From Carboxydocella thermautotrophica (GTDB taxonomy: Bacteria > Bacillota > GCA-003054495 > Carboxydocellales > Carboxydocellaceae): a stretch of DNA of 64,000 nucleotides. Location: contig CP028514.1 of assembly GCA_003054495.1 (NCBI GenBank), positions 2,000,001 to 2,064,000 of the forward strand, written 5' to 3'. Made by a program: the position numbers and the translations under genes. Each line of letters starts with the position of its first letter. Within the stretch, counting starts at the first letter, position 1. This document shows positions 1,058-32,899 of the stretch, piece after piece. The notes beneath the pieces are model-generated. The model saw only the letters and a list, made by a program, of their open reading frames with translations. It was not told the DNA's origin and ran no database searches.

Positions 1058-1969
1058 TTACAATTTTTGCAGGTCACGGGCAATTTGCAGTAAAGTCTGC
1101 CAGCCCAGGGTCGTTGTAGTCCCATCAGCCTGTGCCGCTTGTTCCGCCAAATAGCGAAGATCTATTGACTTGAGACCGGGGCGCTGGTTTACGGCAATGG
1201 CCCTGGCAGCCTGCCTGAGTTCTTCTCCGACTGCCCTGAGAATAACTTGCCCTTCCGGCCACAGGCCAATCCGTTGCAAAATGAGCAAATTATGATAGAT
1301 GCTTTCCACGGTATCAAACCAGAGCTGCCAGTGGTCATCTCCCAGCAGTTTTTGTTCCATTTCCCGCCGGTTTTCCTGCCAGAAACGCCAGGTGCTGCTG
1401 ATTTTCTCCCCCAGCTGGCGCCATTGTTTCCACCCGGCTTCTTCTCCTTGCCCTGTAGTAGTTGCCAGCTGCTGCACAAGTTCTGCCATCTCCAGTAATA
1501 CTTCACTCAACCGGGTGCGTACCACTTTCTCCAGGCGTGGTGGCCATAACAGGGCATTGACCAGCCAGGCTACAAAAATGCCCATCATAGTATCGAGAAA
1601 TCTTCCCCAGGCAAAAACCCAGGGGTGGGTAGCCTGTTCCAGCACTACTGCTGTTAGAACTATCCCGGCTATGCTGATGGATTCCACCAGCCCCAGGAGA
1701 TTACAGAGATAAATGGTCACCAGCAGCCCCAGGCCCAGGGCCCAGGGAGTGCTGCCCAGGCTGATGGCAGCCAGCGCCCCCGTAATGGCACCTACCACTG
1801 TTCCCAGCAGGCGGTTGATGCCCGCATCCAGGGAACTGCCCAGAGTTGATTGCATGACGACAATAACAGCGATTACCGCATAAAAAGGATAATCCAGATG
1901 AAAAATTCGGGCTATAACCATCGTCAGCGCTGCAGCTATTGCTGTTTTAATAATCCGTTTACCGATCAC
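1058..1969 (-). CDS. FUSC/aromatic acid exporter-like membrane protein
   Basis: This 303-residue protein begins with about five to six hydrophobic segments in the first 140 residues (for example around 10-40, 55-90 and 95-140), followed by a soluble, helical C-terminal half rich in Trp, Glu and Arg. This is the plan of the FUSC/ArAE (aromatic acid exporter, DUF939-like) family of putative efflux proteins. The start is GTG 1969 with GGAGG nine bases before it, overlapping the stop of the upstream diheme cytochrome gene by four bases, so the two are translationally coupled. Substrate is unknown. The coupling to a cytochrome and a histidine kinase is unusual for this family. Confidence 0.65.
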   Translation of the reverse strand: MIGKRIIKTAIAAALTMVIARIFHLDYPFYAVIAVIVVMQSTLGSSLDAGINRLLGTVVGAITGALAAISLGSTPWALGLGLLVTIYLCNLLGLVESISIAGIVLTAVVLEQATHPWVFAWGRFLDTMMGIFVAWLVNALLWPPRLEKVVRTRLSEVLLEMAELVQQLATTTGQGEEAGWKQWRQLGEKISSTWRFWQENRREMEQKLLGDDHWQLWFDTVESIYHNLLILQRIGLWPEGQVILRAVGEELRQAARAIAVNQRPGLKSIDLRYLAEQAAQADGTTTTLGWQTLLQIARDLQKL

Positions 1970-2676
1970 TGTTTCGCCTCCAGGTACTTGATCATTACTG
2001 CCATTTCCTTTTCCGTTAGCGGGATGACAGGCATCATTCCCTGGGACTGCCCGCTCCCGGAAAGTTTAGCTTTCAGCCCGGCAGCACCATTGCGCTGATA
2101 GGCTTCTCGCAAATCAGGGCCAATTTCCCCTCCTGTCCCGTCCAAACGATGGCAGAGTAAACATTGCTTATCGCGAAAAATAGCAGGTATTTGCTGGTTT
2201 TCCATCTCAGCCGTCCTATCTTTGCCCTGCAGCAGCCCTTGCTCCAGGAAGTACTCCATCAGCCTCTGGGTCTCTTCTTCCCCCAGGGGTACACTCACCA
2301 TCAGCTGGTTGGCTGGCCTTTTCAACAGTTGCTTGAGCCGCTGCGGTGTGTAATCCCGCAAAAGCTGGGAAAGATCGGGAGCTATCTCTCCCCACTGACC
2401 CTGCCAGCGATGGCAGTTCAGGCAAAAGTGTTCCAGCACCTCTCTGCCATCCTTGAAGGAAGGAGTCCGGGGCCGGACCATGGCTTTCAGCTCCAATCCC
2501 TGGTACAGCTGCCAGCCAATAGCCCCCAGGGGCAAGAGGGACAGAATCAGCATGGCCAGACCGAAGATCTGTTTTCTATCTTTCCCGAACAAAGCAAATC
2601 CAAGAAAAACCAGGCTGTTTAATAGTACAATGGCCAGGGAAAGCAGGGCCAGTTGCAGAAAAAGGGTATTACTCAT
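1966..2676 (-). CDS. Membrane-anchored diheme c-type cytochrome
   Basis: The protein has 236 residues, with two hydrophobic helices at about 7-30 and 36-58 and then an exported domain carrying two heme c motifs: CLNCH at 85-89 and CLLCH at 172-176. Each is followed by a G-x-I-[AG]-P-D-L sequence, so the domain looks like a tandem duplication of a monoheme cytochrome c fold. Candidate axial methionines lie near 126 and 213. It should transfer electrons on the outer face of the membrane. Its ATG overlaps the last codons of the histidine kinase gene by eight bases and has GGGAGG upstream. The partner oxidoreductase is not adjacent. Confidence 0.85.
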   Translation of the reverse strand: MSNTLFLQLALLSLAIVLLNSLVFLGFALFGKDRKQIFGLAMLILSLLPLGAIGWQLYQGLELKAMVRPRTPSFKDGREVLEHFCLNCHRWQGQWGEIAPDLSQLLRDYTPQRLKQLLKRPANQLMVSVPLGEEETQRLMEYFLEQGLLQGKDRTAEMENQQIPAIFRDKQCLLCHRLDGTGGEIGPDLREAYQRNGAAGLKAKLSGSGQSQGMMPVIPLTEKEMAVMIKYLEAKQ

Positions 2677-20344: not shown

Positions 20345-21418
20345 TTAAAATGGCAAGAGGGGAAATATATGAATGTTATTTTTTTTCAAACTCAGCCGCT
20401 GCTGCCGCCGGGTAGCCAGTTCCAGGCGGTTATAAACATGGCGGGGTAAATCAATAAGCATCCTCTCTGTGGCCTGATTTGGACAACCAATTTCCACCCA
20501 GAGCAAATAGGTGGTACCCCGGGCCATCTCCTCCACAATGGTCCCTTCCACTATATTTTCCCCCAGATTGGCGGATAGCTGGCGTTCCGGCCGTACCAGC
20601 ATCACATTTTCCGGCCTGATGCCGAATTTCAACATTTGACCTGCCGTCACCGGCCAATTTCCTGTCACCCGCAGTTGCCAGCCCTGCCAGTTAAGAACGG
20701 TCTCCGTTTCACTGTGGGCTTCAACCAGTGCCGGGAAGAGGTTGCTCATACCAACGAAGCGGGCAATCTCCTCTGTAACGGGATGCTGAAAGACTTCCTC
20801 CTTGCTGCCGACCTGAACCAGTTTGCCCTGGTTGATAATACCAATCCGCTCAGCCAGCACATAAGCCTCGGTGAAATCATGACAAACATGAATGACGGTC
20901 AGGTGCTGTTCCCGTTGCAACCTTTTCAGTAATAGCCAGAACTCGGCCCGGGTCTGGGGATCCAGTGCCGCCAGCGGTTCATCCAGCAGTAAAATCCGGC
21001 TACCCGCCGCCAGGGCACGGGCCAGGGCTACCCGCTGTCTTTCCCCTCCACTCAAGCGCAGGGGATAGCGGTCCAGCAAGCAGGTTATTCCCAGCCTTTC
21101 TGCCCAGTAATAGGCCTCCTCCCGGGATGCGGCAAAAGCGATATTTTCCCGACAGGTTAAATGGGGAAAAAGGGCATAATCCTGGGGTACATAGGCAATC
21201 TGTCGCTTCTCCGGTGGCAGGCCGCTGACATCCCGCTCCTGCAAAAAAACGCGCCCTGTTTCCGGCAACTGCAACCCGGCAATGGTTTCCAGCAAGACGG
21301 TTTTACCCTGTCCCGAGGGACCCAGCAAAACAAAATACTCGCCCCTGTGAACATGAAGTCCAGGCACTTCCAGGCGGAATTTGCCCCGGGTTACCCGGAT
21401 ATTTTCCAGTCTAATCAC
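20345..21418 (-). CDS. modC: Molybdate/tungstate ABC transporter ATPase
   Basis: This 357-residue ATPase has Walker A GPSGQGKT at about 33-40, Q-loop region YVPQDYALFPH, signature LSGGERQRVALARAL and Walker B ILLLDEPLAALD. A C-terminal extension of about 120 residues (from near 235) looks like the TOBE-type regulatory domain of molybdate and related importers. The start is GTG 21418, overlapping modB by eight bases. The choice of molybdate rather than tungstate cannot be made from the sequence. Confidence 0.85.
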   Translation of the reverse strand: MIRLENIRVTRGKFRLEVPGLHVHRGEYFVLLGPSGQGKTVLLETIAGLQLPETGRVFLQERDVSGLPPEKRQIAYVPQDYALFPHLTCRENIAFAASREEAYYWAERLGITCLLDRYPLRLSGGERQRVALARALAAGSRILLLDEPLAALDPQTRAEFWLLLKRLQREQHLTVIHVCHDFTEAYVLAERIGIINQGKLVQVGSKEEVFQHPVTEEIARFVGMSNLFPALVEAHSETETVLNWQGWQLRVTGNWPVTAGQMLKFGIRPENVMLVRPERQLSANLGENIVEGTIVEEMARGTTYLLWVEIGCPNQATERMLIDLPRHVYNRLELATRRQQRLSLKKNNIHIFPLLPF

Positions 21419-22199
21419 TGTTTTCCCTCCCTATCCCGGCTGCCAGTCGCAACAACCAGAGGGCCAGAAGCGCCAGGAAGATTAGAATCAGGGCCAGTGC
21501 CACTGTTTGATCTATATCCACTGAAGATAGACTGAGATAAATAGCGGTAGGCAAAACTTCCGTCTTAAACCGGGTAGCACCGGCAAAGGTAACAGTAGCC
21601 CCGAATTCCCCCAGGGCTCTGGCCCAGGTGATCACAGTGGTGGCCAGGATGCCCGGCCGGGCCAGGGGCAGGGTTACCCGCCGGAAAACCTGCCCGCTAT
21701 TACAGCCCAGGGTACGGGCCACCTGTTCCAGACGAGGATCGATAGTCTCAAAGGTGGTTTTCAATAAGCGCAAGGCGTAGGTTGCTACCACCGTAAACTG
21801 GGCCAGAATGACACCTCCAGCAGTAAAAACCGGGGAAAGGCCCATGCCCTCCAGCCATCGCCCCAGGGGGCTACGGAAGAAGAGAAGCAGGGCAACACCT
21901 CCCACAATGGGAGGTAGTACCAGGGGCAGATCCAGAAATGTTTCCAGCAAGCTACGGCCGGGAAATTGCCGGCGAGCCAGAAAATAAGCTGCAGGCAAAG
22001 CCAGAACTAGGCTTATGATGGTGGTAGTTGTAGCTGTCAGCAAACTGAGGCGAACGGCGAACAGCACTTCAGGGGAAAGAAAAGCCTGAACCAGGGCTGC
22101 CGGCCGGATATTGAAGGCAATCGCCCCCAGCAAGGCAGCCACAAAAAAGAGGTAGAACAGCAGATTAATTCTGGCTACTCGCTCAAAGCTGTCTCTCAA
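21411..22199 (-). CDS. modB: Molybdate/tungstate ABC transporter permease
   Basis: The 262-residue permease has about six membrane helices and the cytoplasmic EAA loop as ARTLGCNSGQVFRRVTLPLA near 180-200. ARALGEFGATVTFAG shortly after is typical of ModB/CysT-type permeases. It starts with TTG 22199 inside the modA stop region (TTTTGAGAG), so modA and modB are translationally coupled. Confidence 0.88.
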   Translation of the reverse strand: MRDSFERVARINLLFYLFFVAALLGAIAFNIRPAALVQAFLSPEVLFAVRLSLLTATTTTIISLVLALPAAYFLARRQFPGRSLLETFLDLPLVLPPIVGGVALLLFFRSPLGRWLEGMGLSPVFTAGGVILAQFTVVATYALRLLKTTFETIDPRLEQVARTLGCNSGQVFRRVTLPLARPGILATTVITWARALGEFGATVTFAGATRFKTEVLPTAIYLSLSSVDIDQTVALALILIFLALLALWLLRLAAGIGRENSD

Positions 22200-22990
22200 A
22201 ATTTCACTTCCTTCTCATCTACCGCATAACCATGTTTTCGGAAGATTTCCTTTCCCCGTTCTGAGGTGAGGAAATCAATAAATTTCTGTGCTGTTTCCGG
22301 CTGCTGGCTGAAGCGGCTGATAGCCACCGGAATATTGCCGATCTTGACCAGCTGTTCTTTTGGCAGGGGAATTACTTCCAGTTTCTCGGGATTCCAGTTA
22401 TCAAATACCGTCCAGCCGATAACTGCATCTACCTGGTTTAAAGCAGCAACCGTTGCGGTATCCTCACAGCTTTTAGGAGTAACGACGATGTTTTTTTCGA
22501 TGGCAGCCGTCAGCCCGTTTTTGGCAAAAATATCCTTAGCATACAGGCCTAAACAGACGGTTTTCGGTTCGGCAATGCCCACTTTCACACCCGGCCGCGC
22601 CAGGTCCGCCAGGGTCTTGATGCCTTTAGGGTTGCCTTTGGGCACTACAATGGCTGGAACCAGGTAGGCGACAATTTTTCTGCTTTCCGGTTTGACTGCC
22701 TGTTTGGTTTCTGCTATATCCATAAAATCATGGGAGCCCGGGATGTAAAGGTCACCCTTTTGGGCCAGCAACATCTGGGATAACATGGTACCAGAACCAC
22801 CATAACTGGCCTGCACCGGGATACCGGTCCGGGCAGTAAAGGCCTGGATCACTTCTTCCAGGGGCGGTTTTACCGCTGAGCCGGCAAAAATGGTCAGGGG
22901 CTCTTTTGCCTTTTGAGCTGCGGTACAGCCAGTTAGGATGCCGGCCAGTAACATTAACACCAGGAGCAAAACGGTTTTTCTTGATTGCAT
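22196..22990 (-). CDS. modA: Molybdate/tungstate-binding lipoprotein
   Basis: The 264-residue protein has a lipoprotein signal (hydrophobic 8-20, lipobox LTGC at about 19-22) and a ModA-type type II binding fold: FAGSAVKPPLEEV near the mature N-terminus, SYGGSGTM, PGSHDFMD, and IGWTVFDNW near 190. It captures oxyanions for ModBC. The gene lies directly behind a structured leader RNA with an intrinsic terminator. It probably supplies the cofactor metal for the molybdopterin enzyme encoded at 29-32 kb. Confidence 0.88.
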   Translation of the reverse strand: MQSRKTVLLLVLMLLAGILTGCTAAQKAKEPLTIFAGSAVKPPLEEVIQAFTARTGIPVQASYGGSGTMLSQMLLAQKGDLYIPGSHDFMDIAETKQAVKPESRKIVAYLVPAIVVPKGNPKGIKTLADLARPGVKVGIAEPKTVCLGLYAKDIFAKNGLTAAIEKNIVVTPKSCEDTATVAALNQVDAVIGWTVFDNWNPEKLEVIPLPKEQLVKIGNIPVAISRFSQQPETAQKFIDFLTSERGKEIFRKHGYAVDEKEVKF

Positions 22991-23230: not shown

Positions 23231-24202
23231 TTAAGCTGTGAAAGTGAAATTTATTTCTTGCAGCAGGTTCTGTTTTTTGATACAGGCAGGGCATTTTCCT
23301 TCCCTGGTCGAGGATATCACCTGGCCGCAAACCTGACAGTATATTACTGGTATTTCCTTTAATATTATCGGTTTTATTCTCTCCTTCCATGATCCGGGCT
23401 GCCAGCTTAACGCCCGCACAGGACAGAGACCGCTACATACATGACAATCCCGGCATTTACTCCCCTGCCACAATAGCCGTCTGGTTTTACCATCCACTTC
23501 ACTAAAAAAGGCTTGCTGTGGACAGACCCGGATACAAACACCACACTGATCACATTTACCGGGATCAACTGCCAGTATCTCCGCACTGCGTTGCCAGGCC
23601 GCTTCCGGTAATCGGGGTAACAGGTTGGACCAGCTGGGACGGGGCTTGTTTTCCCCGGAGTCCTTCAGTACCTGTTCCACCTTTTCCAGCAGTTTCAGGC
23701 TAAGCCAAGAAAAAAGCGCCCGTCGACCCAGTTTTTTCTCTTTCGGTGAAATTTTAAACTGACACCGTTCCTGCCAGCCCGTAGCCCTTAACCAGTCTTT
23801 AACCTGCTGCCGGGTTTTCTCCGCATAGATACGCCAGTTGGAGCAGGCACAGCTTTCACAATCGCCGCAATGTATCTCCAGTCTTTCTTCTCCGTGTTTT
23901 TCCAGCCAGTCTAAAATTTCCTCGACAGTAAGCACTGCTAGACAGGGTATATTAATAGCCCCCTCGACAGGTCCCGTTTCCTGACAGGCCAACACCGGGG
24001 CCTGCAGCCAGGCTGAACCGCTGGCTGCAGCGGTGGGACACTGGGCCCGGCAGAAACCGCAATTTTGACAACCCTGCTTTTCGACCACCGGCAAGCCATT
24101 TACTAACTGAATCGCCTGACCAGGGCAGTTTTCCAGACACACCCGGCAAGCCTGATTGCGATATCGGCGCAAACATTTTCCTGAATCAATTTGTGCCGGC
24201 AT
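23231..24202 (-). CDS. Multi-cluster ferredoxin-like iron-sulfur protein
   Basis: This 323-residue protein has two ferredoxin-like halves joined by a basic linker. The first has a cysteine set beginning CLRRYRNQACRVCLENCP and then CQNCGFCRAQCP; the middle has CGDCESCAC; the second half has CDQCGVCIRVCP and CRDCHVCSGLCP; a CQVCG...CPAC zinc-ribbon-like tail ends it. Four or more [4Fe-4S] clusters are likely. No signal peptide is visible, so it should work in the cytoplasm. It follows the two-component regulator by 13 bp and is probably the last gene of the respiratory cluster. Its role as maturation or electron-transfer partner is inference. Confidence 0.8.
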   Translation of the reverse strand: MPAQIDSGKCLRRYRNQACRVCLENCPGQAIQLVNGLPVVEKQGCQNCGFCRAQCPTAAASGSAWLQAPVLACQETGPVEGAINIPCLAVLTVEEILDWLEKHGEERLEIHCGDCESCACSNWRIYAEKTRQQVKDWLRATGWQERCQFKISPKEKKLGRRALFSWLSLKLLEKVEQVLKDSGENKPRPSWSNLLPRLPEAAWQRSAEILAVDPGKCDQCGVCIRVCPQQAFFSEVDGKTRRLLWQGSKCRDCHVCSGLCPVRALSWQPGSWKERIKPIILKEIPVIYCQVCGQVISSTREGKCPACIKKQNLLQEINFTFTA

Positions 24203-24215
24203 ACTCTCACTCCTA

Positions 24216-24854
24216 TCAAGGGCTAATCCCCAGTTCCCGGGCTGCGCGAACCAGTTCAGACCGCCCTTTTGCCCGCAGTTTTTCTTTCAGTTTAGCTTTA
24301 TATACTTCCACTGTTTTTACACTGATGAAAAGCTGGTCGGCAATTTCTTTGTTGGTATAGCCCCGGGCGATCAAAGCCAGGACTTCTCTTTCCCGTTCGG
24401 TTAAAAGAGGATCTTTCCGTTCTTTCTCCGGTTTGCGACCCGCTAGTTCTTTCAGCAAAAACCCAGCAATAGCCGGATCAACAAAAATTTTGCCTTCATA
24501 AACACTGCGAATAGCTGAAAGCAGCTCAATATCAGCTGCCTTTTTCAGCAGATAGCCATGAGCTCCGGCCTGTAACACCCTCTTTACATACCCTTCATCT
24601 TCATGCATAGTCAGGACAAGCACCCGGCACGCAGGATTCAACTTCGACAACTGCTCTACCAGCGCAATCCCGCCCATACCTGGCATGCTCAAATCAACCA
24701 GGGCTAGATCAAAATCCAGGGTTAAGGCCAAATCCAGAGCTTCTTCTGCCGTAGCTGCTTCACCAACTACTAGCATATCCTTTTGAGCTCCAATTAACAT
24801 TTTTAAACCCGAGCGCAATACAGCATGATCATCTACCAGTAAAATTTTAATCAT
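24216..24854 (-). CDS. NarL/LuxR-family response regulator
   Basis: The 212-residue regulator has a receiver domain with acidic pocket DD at 8-9, phosphoacceptor Asp54 (ALVDLSMPGM) and the conserved Lys near 105. A C-terminal LuxR-type HTH starts at about 145 with LTEREREVLALIARGYTNKEIA. It overlaps the histidine kinase gene by eight bases, making a cognate pair. It likely activates the oxidoreductase/cytochrome operon upstream, by genomic context. Confidence 0.92.
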   Translation of the reverse strand: MIKILLVDDHAVLRSGLKMLIGAQKDMLVVGEAATAEEALDLALTLDFDLALVDLSMPGMGGIALVEQLSKLNPACRVLVLTMHEDEGYVKRVLQAGAHGYLLKKAADIELLSAIRSVYEGKIFVDPAIAGFLLKELAGRKPEKERKDPLLTEREREVLALIARGYTNKEIADQLFISVKTVEVYKAKLKEKLRAKGRSELVRAARELGISP

Positions 24855-26283
24855 TTACCTCGCTCCCCTCCAACAGCGGCAAGCGGAGATATATACTACA
24901 CCCCTGTCCCGGCTCAGTCTCAATTTGAAATTCTCCCCCCAGCAGTGTAGCTCTTTCCTGCATACCAAACAGCCCTAGTTTTTTCTTGAAGATATTGTTT
25001 TCCAGAGCTTCATCCAGACAAAAACCCTGGCCATCATCTTCGATTATTACTTTCAATTGTTTTTCTTCCCGCCTAACAACGATACTGACATTTTCAGCCT
25101 GTGCATGTTTGGCGATATTGGTCAGAGCTTCCTGGATAATTCTGTAAACAGCTGTTTCTATATGAATCGGTAGCCTTTTATCCAGCCCATCGATGAGCAG
25201 GTCAACATCAATCCGGTGTCTCTCCCCCCATTGTTTAAGATAAAATTTAAGCCCTTCCTCCAGTCCCAGATCATCCAGAACGCTGGGTCTCAATTCTAAC
25301 GCCAGAGAGCGCAACTCGTCCAGGACATTATCAGTCATTCCCAGAATTTCCGCCAAATACTGAAGATGTTCCGGTTCTTTTTCCTGCTGATAAAAAGTGC
25401 GTAATGCTACTTTCAAGGATGTCAGGCTCTGACTGGCCTGATCATGTAACTCCCGGGCGATCCGTTTCCGCTCTTCTTCCTGAGCTGCAATTAGTTTGGC
25501 CAGTAATTGCTGACGGATAATTTCTTTTTGGCGCAATTCCTCGCTATATTGTTGTAGTTGTAGCTGGTTTTGCCGAATTTTGGCCACCATCTCATTGAAA
25601 GCCGCAGTAAGACTGGCCAGGTCATCACCGCTGTTTTCTACCGGTACCTGAATGGCCAAATTACCTGCTGCCACTTCCTGGGTAGCGTGTACCAGGCGCT
25701 TTAAGGGTTTGGTAACCACCCCGGTTAGCCAGATCGCCATTAATATCCCAAAAAAGCTCACTCCACCGGTAGTCAACAAAAGCCGGCTGCTGACATGTTT
25801 TAGGCCTTCCTGCAGATAATATTCTGTCATACCAACCCTTACCCAGCCTGCGCTTCCTTCCAGAATAGGGATGGCAATGTCTTTAATCAATCCGTCCGGA
25901 CTGGAAAAAACCACGATATTTTTTTCCTGCCCTGGTCGAATAGAGTTTATATTCCTTAAACCTGCCGGCAGGCGACGGCCAAAGGTGCTGTGTACCAGAT
26001 TACCTTTCTGATCAAAGACCAGAATGTACTTAATGTCCTGGTTATTCTGGCGTGTATCTTTTAACAGCTCATCCAGAGCATAGAGATTACGGGTAAAAAG
26101 CAAATCAGCACTGCGGGCGGCCAGGTCCCTGCCGATGGAAATCCCCCGCTGGGTTAATTGCTGCCCCATTATTTTATGCAGGGTCATCTGCACATCAAAA
26201 AAGGCAAAAACAGCAGTAAGAAAAATCAGGGCAATGATCATGATAATTATTTTACCGGACAGACTGATTTTTTTAATATCCAT
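24847..26283 (-). CDS. Sensor histidine kinase (NarX-like, HAMP-HisKA_3)
   Basis: This 478-residue kinase has membrane helices at about 10-30 and 168-190 around an extracytoplasmic sensor, a HAMP linker (about 191-245), and a HisKA_3 segment with His280 in IARELHDQASQ. The HATPase_c domain follows (IEDDGQGF). The short sensor and the overlap with the adjoining PhnD-like lipoprotein gene suggest that the binding protein presents a ligand to the kinase, as in three-component systems such as AioX-AioS-AioR. The base composition of 24.2-27.2 kb looks AT-richer than its surroundings by eye. Confidence 0.9.
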   Translation of the reverse strand: MDIKKISLSGKIIIMIIALIFLTAVFAFFDVQMTLHKIMGQQLTQRGISIGRDLAARSADLLFTRNLYALDELLKDTRQNNQDIKYILVFDQKGNLVHSTFGRRLPAGLRNINSIRPGQEKNIVVFSSPDGLIKDIAIPILEGSAGWVRVGMTEYYLQEGLKHVSSRLLLTTGGVSFFGILMAIWLTGVVTKPLKRLVHATQEVAAGNLAIQVPVENSGDDLASLTAAFNEMVAKIRQNQLQLQQYSEELRQKEIIRQQLLAKLIAAQEEERKRIARELHDQASQSLTSLKVALRTFYQQEKEPEHLQYLAEILGMTDNVLDELRSLALELRPSVLDDLGLEEGLKFYLKQWGERHRIDVDLLIDGLDKRLPIHIETAVYRIIQEALTNIAKHAQAENVSIVVRREEKQLKVIIEDDGQGFCLDEALENNIFKKKLGLFGMQERATLLGGEFQIETEPGQGCSIYLRLPLLEGSEVND

Positions 26284-27178
26284 TGTTTTTCACCTGCTGG
26301 GCTAATTTTCGAATAACCTCATAATCCTGATCATTGCCAGGCTCAAACCTTTCAATCTGTAATCTGCGTAAAATTGCCTGTCCGTCCTGGCGTTGATGCA
26401 AATTCAACATGATTTCAGCAATTCTTTCTTTCAATTTCGCATCAAGCCCTGGCCGGGCCACCAGTGGTGGCATCCCGGCCGCTGGAGAAACATTGATAAT
26501 GCTGGTATTGGCCCTGATACTCCTGTCCTTGGCTGCCATATATTCATAGATTAGCCCATCTACTGCTGCGCCGTCTACCAAGCCCTGAGCCACTGCTTTG
26601 ATGGCATTATCATGGCTGCCCATAAAATAGGTTTCAGCAAAAAATCGTGCGGGATCAGTATGTTGTTGTCGTAAAAGTGCCAATGGATAAAAATACCCTG
26701 TAAAGGACATAGGATCGGTAAAAGCAAAACGCTTATCTTTTAGGTCTGAAAAACTGTTTATATTCCCATCTTTTCTTACTATAATATACCCCTGGTAAGT
26801 ATTTTTGCCATTTATTCTGGGAACCGCCAGTAACTCCAATCCGAATTCTTTCTTTCCCATTACATAGGCATAAGAGCAGATAAATGCAATATCAACCTGT
26901 TTATCTCTTAGTAAATCATTAACTTCCTTATAGGAAGCCTTCTGGATAAACACTACCGGCATCCCCAGTTCCCGGCCTAGTTCTTCAATCATTTCCTGAT
27001 AAAGAAAATAGGTTTCCCGGGGCGAAGTCATAGAAGAGACCGCCACTCGCAATGCGGTTGTCTCCCTTTTTTCCTGAGGAACAGGCTCCAGTACATCCCA
27101 GCGAACTCGGGGCAAGTCTGTTCCACAGCCGCTCAGGAAAAGTATCAAAACAATTATACTTAGAAAATATTTTTTCAT
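26273..27178 (-). CDS. PhnD-family periplasmic-binding sensor lipoprotein
   Basis: ATG 27178 follows GGGTGAT at six bases and gives 301 residues. The signal peptide ends in a lipobox, LSGC, with Cys18. The rest has the PhnD/phosphonate-binding type fold (TTALRVAVSSMTSPRE, KQVDIAFICSYAYVMG, FTDPMSFTGYF, MGSHDNAIKAVAQG). There is no ABC permease or ATPase beside it; instead it overlaps the histidine kinase gene. It is therefore probably the ligand-binding part of a three-component sensor. Cys101 lies at the ligand loop; AioX, an arsenite sensor of the same family, also uses a cysteine. Confidence 0.8.
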   Translation of the reverse strand: MKKYFLSIIVLILFLSGCGTDLPRVRWDVLEPVPQEKRETTALRVAVSSMTSPRETYFLYQEMIEELGRELGMPVVFIQKASYKEVNDLLRDKQVDIAFICSYAYVMGKKEFGLELLAVPRINGKNTYQGYIIVRKDGNINSFSDLKDKRFAFTDPMSFTGYFYPLALLRQQHTDPARFFAETYFMGSHDNAIKAVAQGLVDGAAVDGLIYEYMAAKDRSIRANTSIINVSPAAGMPPLVARPGLDAKLKERIAEIMLNLHQRQDGQAILRRLQIERFEPGNDQDYEVIRKLAQQVKNNGY

Positions 27179-27242
27179 AATATCACCCAGTATTAAGTAT
27201 AACATTTTTAGAACCGGAATGGAGATACCAAATGATAGCAGA

Positions 27243-27280: not shown

Positions 27281-28501
27281 TTAGTCATGACATTTAGCAC
27301 AATAAGACTGGAGATTATGGCAGGTGCGGCAATCATTCAGTCGACTGAATGCAACCCCACCATGGGTCCCTATCCAGCTCTGGTCATGAGGATTGGTTTT
27401 CTGATGACAGCTGTTACAGAAACGGTTATTGATGGGTTGAGCTGAGCCCTGGTGACAAAGGGTACAGTTAGCACCTGTAGCCCGACTGGCCTGGGCATGC
27501 TGGACTGGTAGCCAGTTACCTGGATGGGGATTGGTTTTCTGGTGACAGCTACTGCAAAAGTCCGGTTTGGCCCAGCTGGCACCCGGGTTAACCGGGTTTT
27601 GCGAAGAATGGCAGAAAGCACACTGCTGGGTCGTTTTCAACCCCTGGCCATGAGTTTGCTGCCAGTTCTGCGGATGAGGCATGGTCAAACCATGACAGCT
27701 CTGACAGGAAACAGCTTTTTTGGTTCCGGCTGTGACGGTGGCCTCATGGCATTTGAGACAATCGGCAGCATTGCCGGTCTGTTTAACCTGAGCAGTATGC
27801 TGGGCCAGCCAGCCCTGGGGGTGGGGCATTGTTACCCGGTGACACTGAGCGCACAGCTGATTTTCTACACCTTTCTGGTGACAGTCCAGACAGGCCTTCT
27901 GATTGGCCAGGTAGGCTCTGCCGTGTTCAACTGCCCAGGTCTGCTGAGTGTGAGTCGCCGGTTTCAGTTGTTTCCTATCCTGGTGGCACTGACTGCAGTT
28001 ATCCACCGGCGCTTTGCCCTGACCTTTTGACTTATGACACTCCAGACAATCTTTCATTTTCAGCGGCTTGGGCTGTCCATGTACCAGTTTGGCATGACAG
28101 GTCGTGCAATCAAGCTTTGCCTTTTGCATATGGGTCTGATGGTCGAAACTGATACCAGGCAGTTTTTTCAACTGCTGCGGCCATTTATCGTGACAGGCCT
28201 GGCAGCGGGCTGAAGGGACATCTTCCCGGGGATTGGCGTCTAATTGCATCACTGTTATCGCCAGTTCCCTGAGACCATTGATTTTGGCCTTAGCTAGCCC
28301 AAGCGCGCCCGGGTCGGTATGACAGTCATAACAATGCACCTGCTGGTGCGTGGATAGCTTCCAGGAATCGTAGTATTTATCCATGATATGACAATTGTTG
28401 CAGAAATCAGTCTGCCCGGTATAATAAACCGCACCGCCTGTAAAAATCACTATACCTACCAGCAAAAAGAGAACCATCAATAGCAACCGTTTATTGTGCA
28501 T
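27281..28501 (-). CDS. 16-heme c-type cytochrome with NapC-like membrane anchor
   Basis: The 406-residue protein contains sixteen CxxCH heme c motifs, the first at Cys34 (FCNNCH) and the last CAKCH at the C-terminus. An uncleaved-looking helix at about 5-28 and the following CNNCHIMDKYYDSWKLSTHQ resemble the start of NapC/NirT quinol-oxidising cytochromes. The C-terminal half repeats a module of a heme motif followed by [MN]PHxxxW four times (RVTMPHPQGW, GLTMPHPQNW, QKTNPHPGNW, QKTNPHDQSW). It likely passes electrons from menaquinol to the molybdenum enzyme or outward through the wall. It lies 29 bp after the 4-heme gene. Confidence 0.9.
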   Translation of the reverse strand: MHNKRLLLMVLFLLVGIVIFTGGAVYYTGQTDFCNNCHIMDKYYDSWKLSTHQQVHCYDCHTDPGALGLAKAKINGLRELAITVMQLDANPREDVPSARCQACHDKWPQQLKKLPGISFDHQTHMQKAKLDCTTCHAKLVHGQPKPLKMKDCLECHKSKGQGKAPVDNCSQCHQDRKQLKPATHTQQTWAVEHGRAYLANQKACLDCHQKGVENQLCAQCHRVTMPHPQGWLAQHTAQVKQTGNAADCLKCHEATVTAGTKKAVSCQSCHGLTMPHPQNWQQTHGQGLKTTQQCAFCHSSQNPVNPGASWAKPDFCSSCHQKTNPHPGNWLPVQHAQASRATGANCTLCHQGSAQPINNRFCNSCHQKTNPHDQSWIGTHGGVAFSRLNDCRTCHNLQSYCAKCHD

Positions 28502-28530: not shown

Positions 28531-28947
28531 CTATTGAGCGCCCCGTTTAGCCCAGGAGTGACACTGGGCACAGCTGAGTTTGTCGGTGTATTTCTGTACA
28601 TTCTGATGCTTGGTGGCCCAGGACTGGGGTTTTACCTTTTTCGCATGACAGGAGGCACAGAAGTTGGTGTTGCCATGGCATTTCAGACAGCTATTCGCCC
28701 CCTGTTTGACCACAGTGCTGCCGTGTTTGGCCAGGAAACTGGCACTATGGGGACCTTTGCCTTGAGCTTTGCTGGTACTGGTAGTGCTCTTGCTGGTTGT
28801 AGCGGTTTTGGCCGGGCTGGGAGTGTGACAGGCCAGACAGTTGCCACCCCGGCTGGGCCGCGCATCTGCCACATTGTCCTGCTGATAAATAGTTACGAAA
28901 GCCGCCAGGAGCAGTCCAAAGAGTACGATGGAAATCCACTTTTTCAT
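28531..28947 (-). CDS. Small tetraheme c-type cytochrome
   Basis: At 138 residues it has an N-terminal membrane/signal helix (about 5-22) and four heme motifs: CLACH, CLKCH, CASCH and CAQCH. A Thr/Ser/Lys-rich linker (about 45-65) lies between the first heme and the rest. The segment KPQSWATKHQ resembles the repeat module of the 16-heme neighbour, suggesting common origin. It lies between the molybdopterin subunit and the 16-heme cytochrome, so it is a good candidate for the electron shuttle between them. Confidence 0.88.
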   Translation of the reverse strand: MKKWISIVLFGLLLAAFVTIYQQDNVADARPSRGGNCLACHTPSPAKTATTSKSTTSTSKAQGKGPHSASFLAKHGSTVVKQGANSCLKCHGNTNFCASCHAKKVKPQSWATKHQNVQKYTDKLSCAQCHSWAKRGAQ

Positions 28948-28963
28948 GTCACAACCCCCCTTC

Positions 28964-31900
28964 TTAAACCTTGACCAGTTTGACTCTGGTGTCGTAGAAT
29001 ACCGCAGAGCCTCCGGCGAGGTCGCTGATACAGGTATTGTTAATTACCGGGTCCAACCTCATGGCGGCATTGCCATGGACACCCTGACGGCGGCGGCTGT
29101 CGCCCTTGATTACTTTACCATCAACGGTGACATCCTGTGAGCCGTAGGACCAGTGGCCCCAGCCCAGACTGAAGGCGATAACTCCATCGCGGATGCCTTC
29201 CGTTACTTTGACTTTACCGATCATCTCTTTCTTCTGGCCGTTTTTCAGGTCCCAGACCCCGCTGGTATTGGAAGCGGATACGATCTTGACCCGATCCCCC
29301 GTTTTCAGGCCATAGCGGTAGGCATCCCTGGGATTAACCCAGATATAGTTTTCGCTTTCTACCGCCAGGTTCCAGTAGTTGCTGGCTGTCCGGCTCTTGG
29401 TATGGAGAATATCCTTGTAGGTGATCAGGGTAAGATTATATCCTTCACTGAGATCATTGATCGGCCGACCCAGCGCATCGGCATATGGTCGGATATACTG
29501 GGGTAACCCTGGGAAGGCTTTCCCTGTCATGGAGTTCTTGGTCTTGTATGTTTTTTCCTGATAGAGGTTGATCTGCTTGCCATATTTGTTTTTTACTTTC
29601 TCGCCATCATAGGCTTTCTCGAAGTCCTGATACAAACCGCCCCGGTTCAGCAGATAAATAATGCGCTTGAACCAGCTTTCTCCCACCAGGGCCTGCCAGC
29701 GCTGCGGGTCAAAAACTTCTTTGGGCAGATGCTTACGGGCAGCATAGAAGACAGCGATTTCTTCAGCACTGGCTTCAGGTACAGTTTCCTTGCCGGTAGC
29801 ATCATCGCCGAAAGCTAAATTGGCCAGCATAGGAATATACATATCATCCTGGTGTTTTAGGTGGCGCCCCGGCCCAAAGGCATCGGTGCCAAAACCGGGC
29901 AGCTTCATCTCTTCAGCGATGGCCAGCAGTACCGTTTCCAGTGAAATGGGCATGGTCTGACCATACACAGTCACTTTTTCCGTCAGGGGGGCAATTGCCG
30001 GCTGTCTGACAGGCTGTACTTTCTGGGCCACATTGGGATGGGAGCCGTGGAATTCCCAGCGCTCCAGATAAGTCAGATCCGGGAAGATATAGTCGGCATA
30101 CATAGAGCTTTCCCCGACAACAATATCGAAGGCCACATATAAAGGCAGCTTGTTAACATCCGACAGTACTTCGATGTTCTTATGCCCACCTGGCAGTGAG
30201 TAAACCGGTGAACCCATATACTGGAACAACACCTTCACCGGATAGGGGTAGGCGTCACCGATTGATGGAATGATTTCCTGATAGACATCCGAGGCCAGGG
30301 TATACCAGTGCCGCTTGGCCGGATAGCCATTGAATATGGTGGTATTTTCATATTTCACATTGTGCCTGATGCTGCTAATACCAAAGTTGGCGATTTTGCC
30401 AGGGTTCTTGGTCATGTCAAAGGGTTTGCCAGTCTTGGTCCCATCATAGTTATAGGTGGAAGCCTTAATCATGCCGCCCTTCCAGTCAAAGTTACCGATC
30501 AGCAGGTTGAGGGACATCCACACTCCAACATTATAGAAACCATTGGTGTGCTGGGAAACACCCCGATGAACATCGGCAGCTGCTTTTTTACCGTGAGAGG
30601 TGAATTCCCGGGCCAGGGCGATCAGGTCTTCCGGCTCCAGTCCGCAAATATCGGCCCACTCATCAATGGTCTTGCTGAGAGCGTGATCCTTCAGAAGTCG
30701 GAAGGAGCTCTTGACGGTAATGCCATTGATTGTGGTCTCCACATCCAGCTCGCCCTCGACCGCCTCGGCAGTGCTGTTGGGATCAACGGCTACCGGCTGC
30801 CCATCCTTCCAGACTACCAGAGGATCCAGTTCATAGTCATAGGTGGTGCCGCTGATGGTCTCGCTCTTGCTGATCTTGGGCAGACCGATCTCGGAGCCCC
30901 GCAGGAATTCCGTCGGCTTGCCATCCACTATTTTCACCAGCCAGCTGGCATTGGACCAGGTCGGTTCCCCATCTGCCGTGGCTGCCGCTTTGTTGGCATT
31001 GGCCAGGTATCTGGCATCATACTTGTTGTTGCTGATAATCCAGTTGATCATAGCAAGGGCAACAGCTGCTTCGGTACCCGGTTTGTTGGGCAGCCATTTC
31101 CAGGCTTTGCTGGCAGCTTTATTGTAACGCGGGTCGACAACGGCAATTTTCAAGCGGCCGCTTTCCAATCCTTCGGTGATTTTCGGCACCCGCTGGGCTG
31201 GACCGTAGTTGGCCTCAAAGGGTGATGCCCCAACAAACAGGATGAACTCCGAGTTGGGTGTATCAGCCTGCCAGTAAAACTTGTCCCCACCGGTCCAGTC
31301 AACTTTGCCTTTTTTGCTATCAAAGGCATACTGTTCGCTCATGGCCTTGCCGGTAAAGTAGAGGGAACCCTGACAGACAGTGGTATGGCCATGGGTGTTG
31401 ATGGAGCCCAGACCGTCATTGGTGAAACGCTTGATAAATTCACTGCGCCCCCCTTTGAGTCGGCCCCAGGCAAAAACGAACTGGTTGTTTTTGGGCCCCA
31501 GATCCGGGTGAGCTGGATCGATCAGCTTATCCAGCTGGTCAGCCCATTTACTCTGGAACTCGGCCAGAGTCATCTTCTTGTTCCAGAGGTTCTCCACATC
31601 AGCAGCCATCGCTTTCGCCACCTGCGGGTCGCGCAGGGCCCAGACATCCATCAATCCCGGAACTACCCGGTTTTCTTCTCCCGGTACACTGGCGAACAGT
31701 TTACCGCCATAGACGATTTCCTTGATCGCCTGGGAGAAGGGAATAGAAACCCACTTGTTGCTGCCCCGCTTGCCGGCCCGCTTGAGTACCCGGCGGATCC
31801 GATAGGGGTCGTAGACAGTTTGAATACCAGACTGACCCTTGGGACAGATAGCCCCGTCGATTTTAGCTGCCTCTTTAATATCGGTAGCATATTTGATGCT

Positions 31901-32164
31901 GGGATACATGGTCCAGGGGCTGTAGGGATTGCCATCGATTTTAACTGCCTGACCATTGAGCAGCTTGACCTTGATGCCACAGCCGGTATTGCATTGCAAG
32001 CAGACGGAGTAAATCATATTTTCCGGATTATCCAGCGGATATTTGTCCTGTGGTTTTCCCGTAGCTGCTACGGCCTCCGTCAACGGCTCCGCTTGTCCGG
32101 CCAGGACCGCTACCCCACCAAGCAGAGCAGAAGTTTTCAGGAAATCTCTTCTGTTTATATCCAT
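28964..32164 (-). CDS. Tat-exported molybdopterin oxidoreductase, catalytic subunit (TtrA/SrdA-like)
   Basis: This 1066-residue DMSO reductase-family subunit opens with a twin-arginine signal, NRRDFLKTSALLGG. A [4Fe-4S] site follows with Cys55, Cys58, Cys62 and Cys107 (CLQCNTGC ... ICPKGQ). The probable Mo/W ligand is Cys264 in HTTVCQGS. A molydopterin-dinucleotide binding domain ends the protein (WVNPRDAYRYGLKTGDRVKI, ending near 1060). Length and Tat export match tetrathionate- and selenate-reductase type enzymes (TtrA, SrdA) more than the shorter ArrA or NapA. The substrate cannot be read from the sequence. The ferredoxin subunit is upstream; no NrfD-type membrane subunit is encoded. Confidence 0.85.
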   Translation of the reverse strand: MDINRRDFLKTSALLGGVAVLAGQAEPLTEAVAATGKPQDKYPLDNPENMIYSVCLQCNTGCGIKVKLLNGQAVKIDGNPYSPWTMYPSIKYATDIKEAAKIDGAICPKGQSGIQTVYDPYRIRRVLKRAGKRGSNKWVSIPFSQAIKEIVYGGKLFASVPGEENRVVPGLMDVWALRDPQVAKAMAADVENLWNKKMTLAEFQSKWADQLDKLIDPAHPDLGPKNNQFVFAWGRLKGGRSEFIKRFTNDGLGSINTHGHTTVCQGSLYFTGKAMSEQYAFDSKKGKVDWTGGDKFYWQADTPNSEFILFVGASPFEANYGPAQRVPKITEGLESGRLKIAVVDPRYNKAASKAWKWLPNKPGTEAAVALAMINWIISNNKYDARYLANANKAAATADGEPTWSNASWLVKIVDGKPTEFLRGSEIGLPKISKSETISGTTYDYELDPLVVWKDGQPVAVDPNSTAEAVEGELDVETTINGITVKSSFRLLKDHALSKTIDEWADICGLEPEDLIALAREFTSHGKKAAADVHRGVSQHTNGFYNVGVWMSLNLLIGNFDWKGGMIKASTYNYDGTKTGKPFDMTKNPGKIANFGISSIRHNVKYENTTIFNGYPAKRHWYTLASDVYQEIIPSIGDAYPYPVKVLFQYMGSPVYSLPGGHKNIEVLSDVNKLPLYVAFDIVVGESSMYADYIFPDLTYLERWEFHGSHPNVAQKVQPVRQPAIAPLTEKVTVYGQTMPISLETVLLAIAEEMKLPGFGTDAFGPGRHLKHQDDMYIPMLANLAFGDDATGKETVPEASAEEIAVFYAARKHLPKEVFDPQRWQALVGESWFKRIIYLLNRGGLYQDFEKAYDGEKVKNKYGKQINLYQEKTYKTKNSMTGKAFPGLPQYIRPYADALGRPINDLSEGYNLTLITYKDILHTKSRTASNYWNLAVESENYIWVNPRDAYRYGLKTGDRVKIVSASNTSGVWDLKNGQKKEMIGKVKVTEGIRDGVIAFSLGWGHWSYGSQDVTVDGKVIKGDSRRRQGVHGNAAMRLDPVINNTCISDLAGGSAVFYDTRVKLVKV

Positions 32165-32179: not shown

Positions 32180-32899
32180 TTACAGCAAATAATAGACGCG
32201 GGGATTTGTTCCTTTATTCTCTAACAGGCGCATATATTTGCGCTGCTTCAGCAGTTTGCTAACAAGAGCATTGGGGTCAGCCAGATCGCCAAAGTAGGTG
32301 GCCCGGCCAACACAGGTGACAGTACAGGCCGGCAATAAGCCCTGGCTTACGCGATGGATGCAAAAGGTGCATTTTCTGGCTCTGCCTTTAGGGGCGGCAA
32401 AGGCGCTGTCCCTTTTCCACTGCTGGTTGTACTCGAAATTGGGCCGTTTTTCATAGCCCTGGACGGCAGGTGTGCCTTCGGTATAGAAACTGCCATCATC
32501 GAGAGCACGGGCAGAATAGGGGCAGGCAGTTACACAGCGGCCACAGCCGATGCATTTTTCATAGTTTACCGCCACCACTTTATCCGCCTGCTTAAAAGTC
32601 GCCCCCACAGGGCAGGCCGGCACACAGGGTGGTTTATCGCAATGCATACAAGGCCTGGGGATAAATTGTTTCTTAACATTGGGAAATACCCCGCTTTCCT
32701 GTTCAAGCACGGGCCGATAGATGACATGGGGCGGAAGCACGTTTTCCGCAATACAGGCGATGGTACAAGCGTGGCAGCCAGCGCATTTTTTTAAATCAAT
32801 TACCATTGCCCACTGCCGCTGACTCAGAGGCCTGGCCAGCGCTCGCTTCACATCTTCCTGCATTATCAGCAGTTTGTCACCGCTTACGCTTGAGCTCAT
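32180..32899 (-). CDS. Four-cluster ferredoxin subunit of the molybdopterin oxidoreductase (TtrB-like)
   Basis: The 239-residue protein has four cysteine clusters typical of the B subunits of DMSO reductase-family enzymes: CAGCHACTIAC, CMHCDKPPCVPAC, CIGCGRCVTACP and CTFCIHR...CTVTC. It lacks its own signal and would be co-exported with the Tat substrate. It relays electrons to the catalytic subunit. It is the first gene of the operon, with GAGGAGGGA before ATG 32899, and precedes the catalytic gene by 15 bp. This B-A order also occurs in srd- and ttr-like operons. Confidence 0.9.
   Translation of the reverse strand: MSSSVSGDKLLIMQEDVKRALARPLSQRQWAMVIDLKKCAGCHACTIACIAENVLPPHVIYRPVLEQESGVFPNVKKQFIPRPCMHCDKPPCVPACPVGATFKQADKVVAVNYEKCIGCGRCVTACPYSARALDDGSFYTEGTPAVQGYEKRPNFEYNQQWKRDSAFAAPKGRARKCTFCIHRVSQGLLPACTVTCVGRATYFGDLADPNALVSKLLKQRKYMRLLENKGTNPRVYYLL

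Follow-up and report, generated by a model that had tools for sequence, protein, structure and literature searches.

How is an exported molybdoenzyme supplied with electrons when its operon carries multiheme cytochromes and no NrfD-type quinol subunit? The question is raised by a 64,000-nucleotide stretch (the window), covering chromosome positions 2,000,001-2,064,000 of the thermophilic Gram-positive bacterium Carboxydocella thermautotrophica 41T, in which a gene for a protein of 406 aa lies at 27281-28501 on the minus strand, with an ATG start behind a Shine-Dalgarno-like gggagggg. A first-pass annotation of this DNA counted 16 CxxCH heme motifs in the protein. The count is exact and far above chance, given that shuffled sequences contain 0.21 motifs each and at most 2 in 2,000 shuffles. 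Three Pfam families (PF03264, PF14522 and PF14537) match above their cut-offs.

The N-terminal part of the protein (residues 7-145; 28067-28483, minus strand) consists of a single hydrophobic helix followed by hemes 1-4. The first-pass annotation called this start NapC-like, and it does belong to the NapC/NirT family PF03264, with 63.8 bits against a gathering cut-off of 24.1. It also aligns with NrfH (2j7a) in phmmer (E 4e-10), and the motif CNNCHIM preserves the heme-1 methionine of NrfH (M40; NrfH pattern CxxCHxM). Together, the family score and the conserved methionine support a role in menaquinol oxidation. Two positions count against a quinol dehydrogenase: Asp89 of NrfH is replaced by Glu in this protein and by Gln in its Carboxydothermus homologues, and for NrfH Lys82 the alignment gives no one-to-one counterpart. 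Outside the motifs the protein has 16 histidines, including His2 near the N-terminal end, and exactly 15 are extracytoplasmic, the number that hemes 2-16 would need if the ligand of heme 1 is Met as in NrfH. An AlphaFold2 model based on 12 sequences has low confidence (pLDDT 41.6, pTM 0.18), with only the helix at residues 2-28 reaching a pLDDT of about 70.

Despite sharing the N-terminal anchor, hemes 1-4 and the CxxCHxM motif of heme 1 with NrfH and NapC, the protein has twelve further hemes, and its operon lacks an NrfA gene (Pfam search of the eight operon proteins). It scores 62.7 bits against the NrfH equivalog TIGR03153, below the curated cut-off of 134.2, and that identity was rejected. 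TorC (25.4 bits, cut-off 455) and a DmsE-type protein (21.9 bits, cut-off 192.2) were rejected as well, as was HmcA (NF045713), which also has sixteen hemes but is matched with only 18.1 bits (cut-off 400). HmcA is not known to have a NapC head.

The hemes behind the head are arranged in two-heme units. Four copies of [MN]PHxxxW (PH at residues 226, 275, 325 and 371) are present in the C-terminal half, in agreement with the fourfold repeat described earlier; when the heme cysteines and histidines were held fixed, a single copy appeared in 30 of 20,000 shuffles and never more. All units lie on the minus strand and were delimited by self-similarity and homologue comparison: unit 1 (hemes 7-8, residues 204-247, MPHPQGW; 27761-27892), unit 2 (hemes 9-10, residues 248-293, MPHPQNW; 27623-27760), unit 3 (hemes 11-12, residues 294-345, NPHPGNW; 27467-27622), which has a masked score of 115 to a near-identical unit in genome G003, and unit 4 (hemes 13-14, residues 346-390, NPHDQSW; 27332-27466), which contains DNA copies and is absent from the G003 homologue. 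With the heme Cys and His masked, the units starting at hemes 7, 9, 11 and 13 score approximately 44-60 in pairs, above the maximum of 41 for motif-preserving shuffles (mean 17, n = 5,460). A diverged unit 0 (hemes 5-6, residues 152-203; 27893-28048), with HTQQTW in place of PHxxxW, scores at most about 30 against the others, which is the 99% level of the same null, and it is placed by this weak self-similarity and by its matching position in homologues. A short terminal pair (hemes 15-16; 27284-27331) resembles the pair that ends the 7-, 8-, 15- and 20-heme homologues. In profile searches, hemes 3-6 are similar to c7/c3-type cytochromes.

A search for homologues with variable repeat number yielded proteins with 7, 8, 10, 12, 14 (deduced), 15, 16 and 20 hemes. 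A layout of 4 + 2n + 2 (head, n units, terminal pair) fits those with 8, 14, 16 and 20 hemes, at n = 1, 4, 5 and 7. The 8-heme member is a paralogue found in the 41T genome and in G001, the 16-heme member is present in both Carboxydocella genomes, and three Carboxydothermus-like genomes have two 20-heme copies each. In one of these copy types 19 CxxCH are joined by one CxxxCH, so its place on the ladder is 20. The G003 homologue has lost its N-terminus at a contig end, with 11 hemes visible and 14 deduced; this genome also holds two near-identical NapC-fusion fragments on separate contigs (L117 and L091), one of them with 6 hemes and ending early, which are either paralogues or the result of an assembly break. 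Unit 0 has a single heme in the 7-heme (G002) and 15-heme (G059) homologues, and the proteins with 10 hemes (G278) and 12 hemes (G234) are more remote relatives.

In best scores between lineages, units 0 to 3 for the most part pair with the unit at the same position. In the Carboxydothermus copies with 19 CxxCH, an extra unit 4 nests within the unit-3 clade of a unit tree and is, judged from this placement, an in-lineage duplication. Unit 4 of Carboxydocella scores best against unit 3 of G003, then against a unit from Carboxydothermus and against the Carboxydocella unit 3. A sensitive repeat search found a 36-nt DNA copy pair at 27386-27421 and 27524-27559 (83% identical), thus shared by units 4 and 3, and a third copy at 27674-27709 (69% identical). 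Given this shared copy, the score ranking and the absence of the unit from G003, Carboxydocella unit 4 likely arose by duplication of unit 3, although the tree of these short units does not join the two; a possible alternative is loss in G003. TRF detects no tandem array in the DNA of the gene, which indicates that the duplications are not recent. The composite architecture and the growth by tandem duplication of modules that the first-pass annotation suggested are thereby supported by unit self-similarity, DNA copies, variable unit numbers among homologues and the nested Carboxydothermus unit.

The 16-heme gene is the fourth of eight on the minus strand, in the order Fe-S subunit, molybdoenzyme, 4-heme protein, 16-heme protein, PhnD-like lipoprotein, kinase, regulator and ferredoxin, a layout common to both Carboxydocella genomes. 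Profile searches identify the first product as a TtrB/ArrB-like 4Fe-4S subunit (239 aa; 32180-32899). The second is a molybdopterin oxidoreductase of 1,066 aa with a Tat signal (28964-32164; PF00384, PF10518) that resembles the TtrA/SrdA lineage. It scores 465.9 bits against the TtrA equivalog NF011567, below the cut-off of 1,750 and yet the best of the listed models, and its best matches are tetrathionate, thiosulfate, DMSO/selenate and arsenate reductases. Cys264 is invariant in 17/17 aligned sequences and is a candidate Mo ligand; Cys is the Mo ligand in the TtrA/SrdA lineage (PMC7331816). The third gene (28531-28947) encodes a small tetraheme cytochrome of 138 aa with a signal-peptide-like start and a Thr/Ser/Lys-rich linker. 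Its kinship with the 16-heme protein, noticed earlier from a shared segment, comes down to one module: from residue 61 it aligns to units 3-4 with a masked score of 52 (0/2,000 shuffles).

Downstream of the 16-heme gene, the PhnD-like binding lipoprotein (26273-27205; PF12974, 241.5 bits) weakly matches the sensor half of TtrS and is a probable sensor input. Pfam further identifies a histidine kinase with HAMP, HisKA_3 and a cache-like domain (24847-26283), a NarL/LuxR-type response regulator (24216-24854) and a 4Fe-4S ferredoxin-like protein (23231-24202), possibly the final gene of the unit, with a distant counterpart in the G002 operon. Just beyond, at 20345-22990, are three genes that by eye look like an oxyanion (molybdate/tungstate-type) ABC transporter, which could furnish metal for the molybdoenzyme. 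Elsewhere in the window, a 236-residue open reading frame with two CxxCH lies at 1966-2676 (minus strand).

In seven related operons (G186, G161, G370, G389, G236, G260 and G003) an NrfD gene stands between those for the B and A subunits, the B-C-A gene order that gives srdBCA its name (PMC7331816). The A and B subunits encoded in the 41T operon belong to the TtrA/SrdA lineage type, but the operon differs from SrdBCA/TtrABC in having c-type cytochromes and no C (NrfD) subunit. C. thermautotrophica and G002, a genome of the same order, both have operons with heme proteins and without NrfD, and they form a clade within the NrfD carriers (support 1.0). NrfD was found neither in the window with a home-made profile nor in the molybdoenzyme operon by a genome search; the whole 41T genome has two NrfD genes, both outside the window. 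One of them sits in a paralogous TtrA-like operon (L077; genome positions 1819001-1839000) with its own kinase and regulator. No NrfD was seen at the G006 locus, which means that the gene was lost more than once or is located elsewhere. A Carboxydothermus-like locus without NrfD (L083:5156-12847) encodes a Nap/Fdh-like molybdoenzyme, an Fe-S protein, a monoheme protein, a 20-heme protein, a kinase with a Tll0287 domain and a regulator. Pfam did not confirm the SLH domain that visual inspection had suggested for its monoheme protein. Since NrfD is present in relatives and heme proteins occur without it in 41T, G002 and L083, the best reading of this operon comparison is a subunit swap, in which the cytochromes would substitute for the NrfD quinol subunit.

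We therefore regard the 16-heme protein as probably a menaquinol dehydrogenase that is anchored in the membrane and carries its own heme wire, feeding the adjacent exported molybdoenzyme in NrfD's place. By analogy with its family, the NapC/NrfH-like head would oxidize menaquinol on the outer side of the membrane. The electrons would travel through hemes 5-16, that is, along the five two-heme units and the terminal pair, and be handed over, perhaps via the 4-heme protein, to the Fe-S/molybdopterin reductase pair encoded just upstream. The reductase would in turn reduce an oxyanion, with tetrathionate, selenate and arsenate as putative substrates. This account is supported by the tight co-directional spacing of the B, A, 4-heme and 16-heme genes, with gaps of 15, 16 and 29 bp. 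We advance only tentatively, and as rather less probable than this role, the fuller evolutionary scenario in which NrfD was lost from a TtrA/SrdA-like reductase and replaced by a NapC-headed wire, with its reach tuned by gain or loss of two-heme units and the reductase working off-membrane inside a single-membrane envelope. Growth of strain 41T only by hydrogenogenic CO oxidation, as reported in the 2018 genome paper (PMC6085454), counts against a role in feeding a reductase.

The G002 operon has no 16-heme gene and only a 3-heme protein, a relative of the 4-heme protein; a 7-heme NapC protein is encoded elsewhere in this draft, which is 85% complete. The lack of both NrfD and the 16-heme gene there implies that the 16-heme chain is dispensable in some cases. 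The 4-heme protein could then be the true donor, or else a NapC or NrfD protein encoded elsewhere, with the 16-heme protein acting mainly as an electron store or serving another partner. The 3-heme relative kept beside the G002 molybdoenzyme fits such a donor, as do several further NapC-family loci and the two NrfD genes in the 41T genome, and supply of NrfD in trans to the 41T reductase is possible. We nevertheless consider this explanation doubtful, given that only 29 bp separate the 16-heme gene from the 4-heme gene ahead of it, that both Carboxydocella genomes keep the layout and that one of the two NrfD genes has a paralogous operon of its own. Electron flow could also run in reverse, with the molybdoenzyme oxidizing a donor and the cytochromes returning electrons to menaquinone. 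NapC proteins can work reversibly. Oxidases such as ArxA do occur within the superfamily (PMC7331816), but the best-matching models are reductases and the weak TtrS match likens the sensor module to acceptor-sensing systems, so that reverse flow appears highly improbable.

Menaquinol oxidation in support of the molybdoenzyme also has to be weighed against a general envelope conduit in extracellular electron transfer, with minerals or surface cytochromes as recipients, for which adjacency to the molybdoenzyme would be secondary. Such a role has been proposed for ImdcA of Thermincola, a decaheme inner-membrane cytochrome and suggested quinol oxidizer (PMC7911101). By description, ImdcA is likewise a membrane-bound multiheme cytochrome thought to oxidize menaquinol, but it has ten hemes and is tied to an extracellular electron transfer pathway. 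The conduit gains further from the Carboxydothermus homologue that adjoins SmhA (PMC7829351) and from the wealth of multiheme cytochromes in the 41T genome. Against it, the 16-heme gene is packed into a molybdoenzyme operon, and strain 41T shows no Fe(III) reduction despite sharing 30 multiheme cytochromes with the Fe(III)-reducing strain 019, according to PMC6085454. Length is a further obstacle. Packed multiheme proteins extend 7.8-11 A per heme, and by this arithmetic 16 hemes span about 12-18 nm. With a Gram-positive peptidoglycan layer of 20-80 nm (PMC7911101), the protein would reach across no more than a part of the wall. The first-pass annotation's proposal of a length suited to crossing that wall is accordingly not sustained, the more so as the neighbour is an exported molybdoenzyme and not a surface mineral reductase, and we judge the conduit unlikely, if somewhat less so than another donor. 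One MAG of the Gemmatimonadota, a diderm phylum, contains an open reading frame with a NapC head, 21 CxxCH and other modules (L009:7887-9938; start codon uncertain), next to a 9-heme open reading frame; long NapC-headed fusions are thus not peculiar to single-membrane cells.

The general idea of a quinol oxidase of this type is not new, as Gavrilov et al. have described the 20-heme C. ferrireducens homologue Ga0395992_02_135863_137242 as a putative Q-oxidase (PMC7829351). The head, PHxxxW two-heme units and terminal pair are alike in the Carboxydothermus-like homologues, and the C. ferrireducens gene and that at the Carboxydothermus-like locus L082 have equal length (1,380 bp) and an SmhA-like neighbour; at L082 the 20-heme family member adjoins an Otr-like multiheme protein. 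The Carboxydothermus type differs in having seven units instead of five and in its partner, either the octaheme protein SmhA or a molybdoenzyme of Nap/Fdh-like type; the 41T molybdoenzyme is TtrA/SrdA-like. If the subunit swap holds, two unrelated quinol-oxidizing parts, NrfD and a NapC-type cytochrome, have been exchanged in one reductase operon, and heme-chain length shifts by whole two-heme units among relatives. The members with 8, 14, 16 and 20 hemes would then form a natural series in which to ask whether electron delivery in bacteria with a single membrane depends on chain length.

The 16-heme gene is not discussed in the available part of the 2018 genome paper, which reports 30 multiheme cytochromes and no CymA homologues (PMC6085454), and our literature searches found nothing on ArrC/NrfD/CymA or on Carboxydocella manganica with selenite and arsenate. 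PF03264 matches at several 41T loci, despite the reported lack of CymA homologues in the species (PMC6085454). NapC-like proteins with 6 and 9 hemes are encoded at three further loci (L092, L093 and L094), and in L092 and L094 a polyprenyl synthetase gene, perhaps for menaquinone synthesis, adjoins the NapC-like gene.
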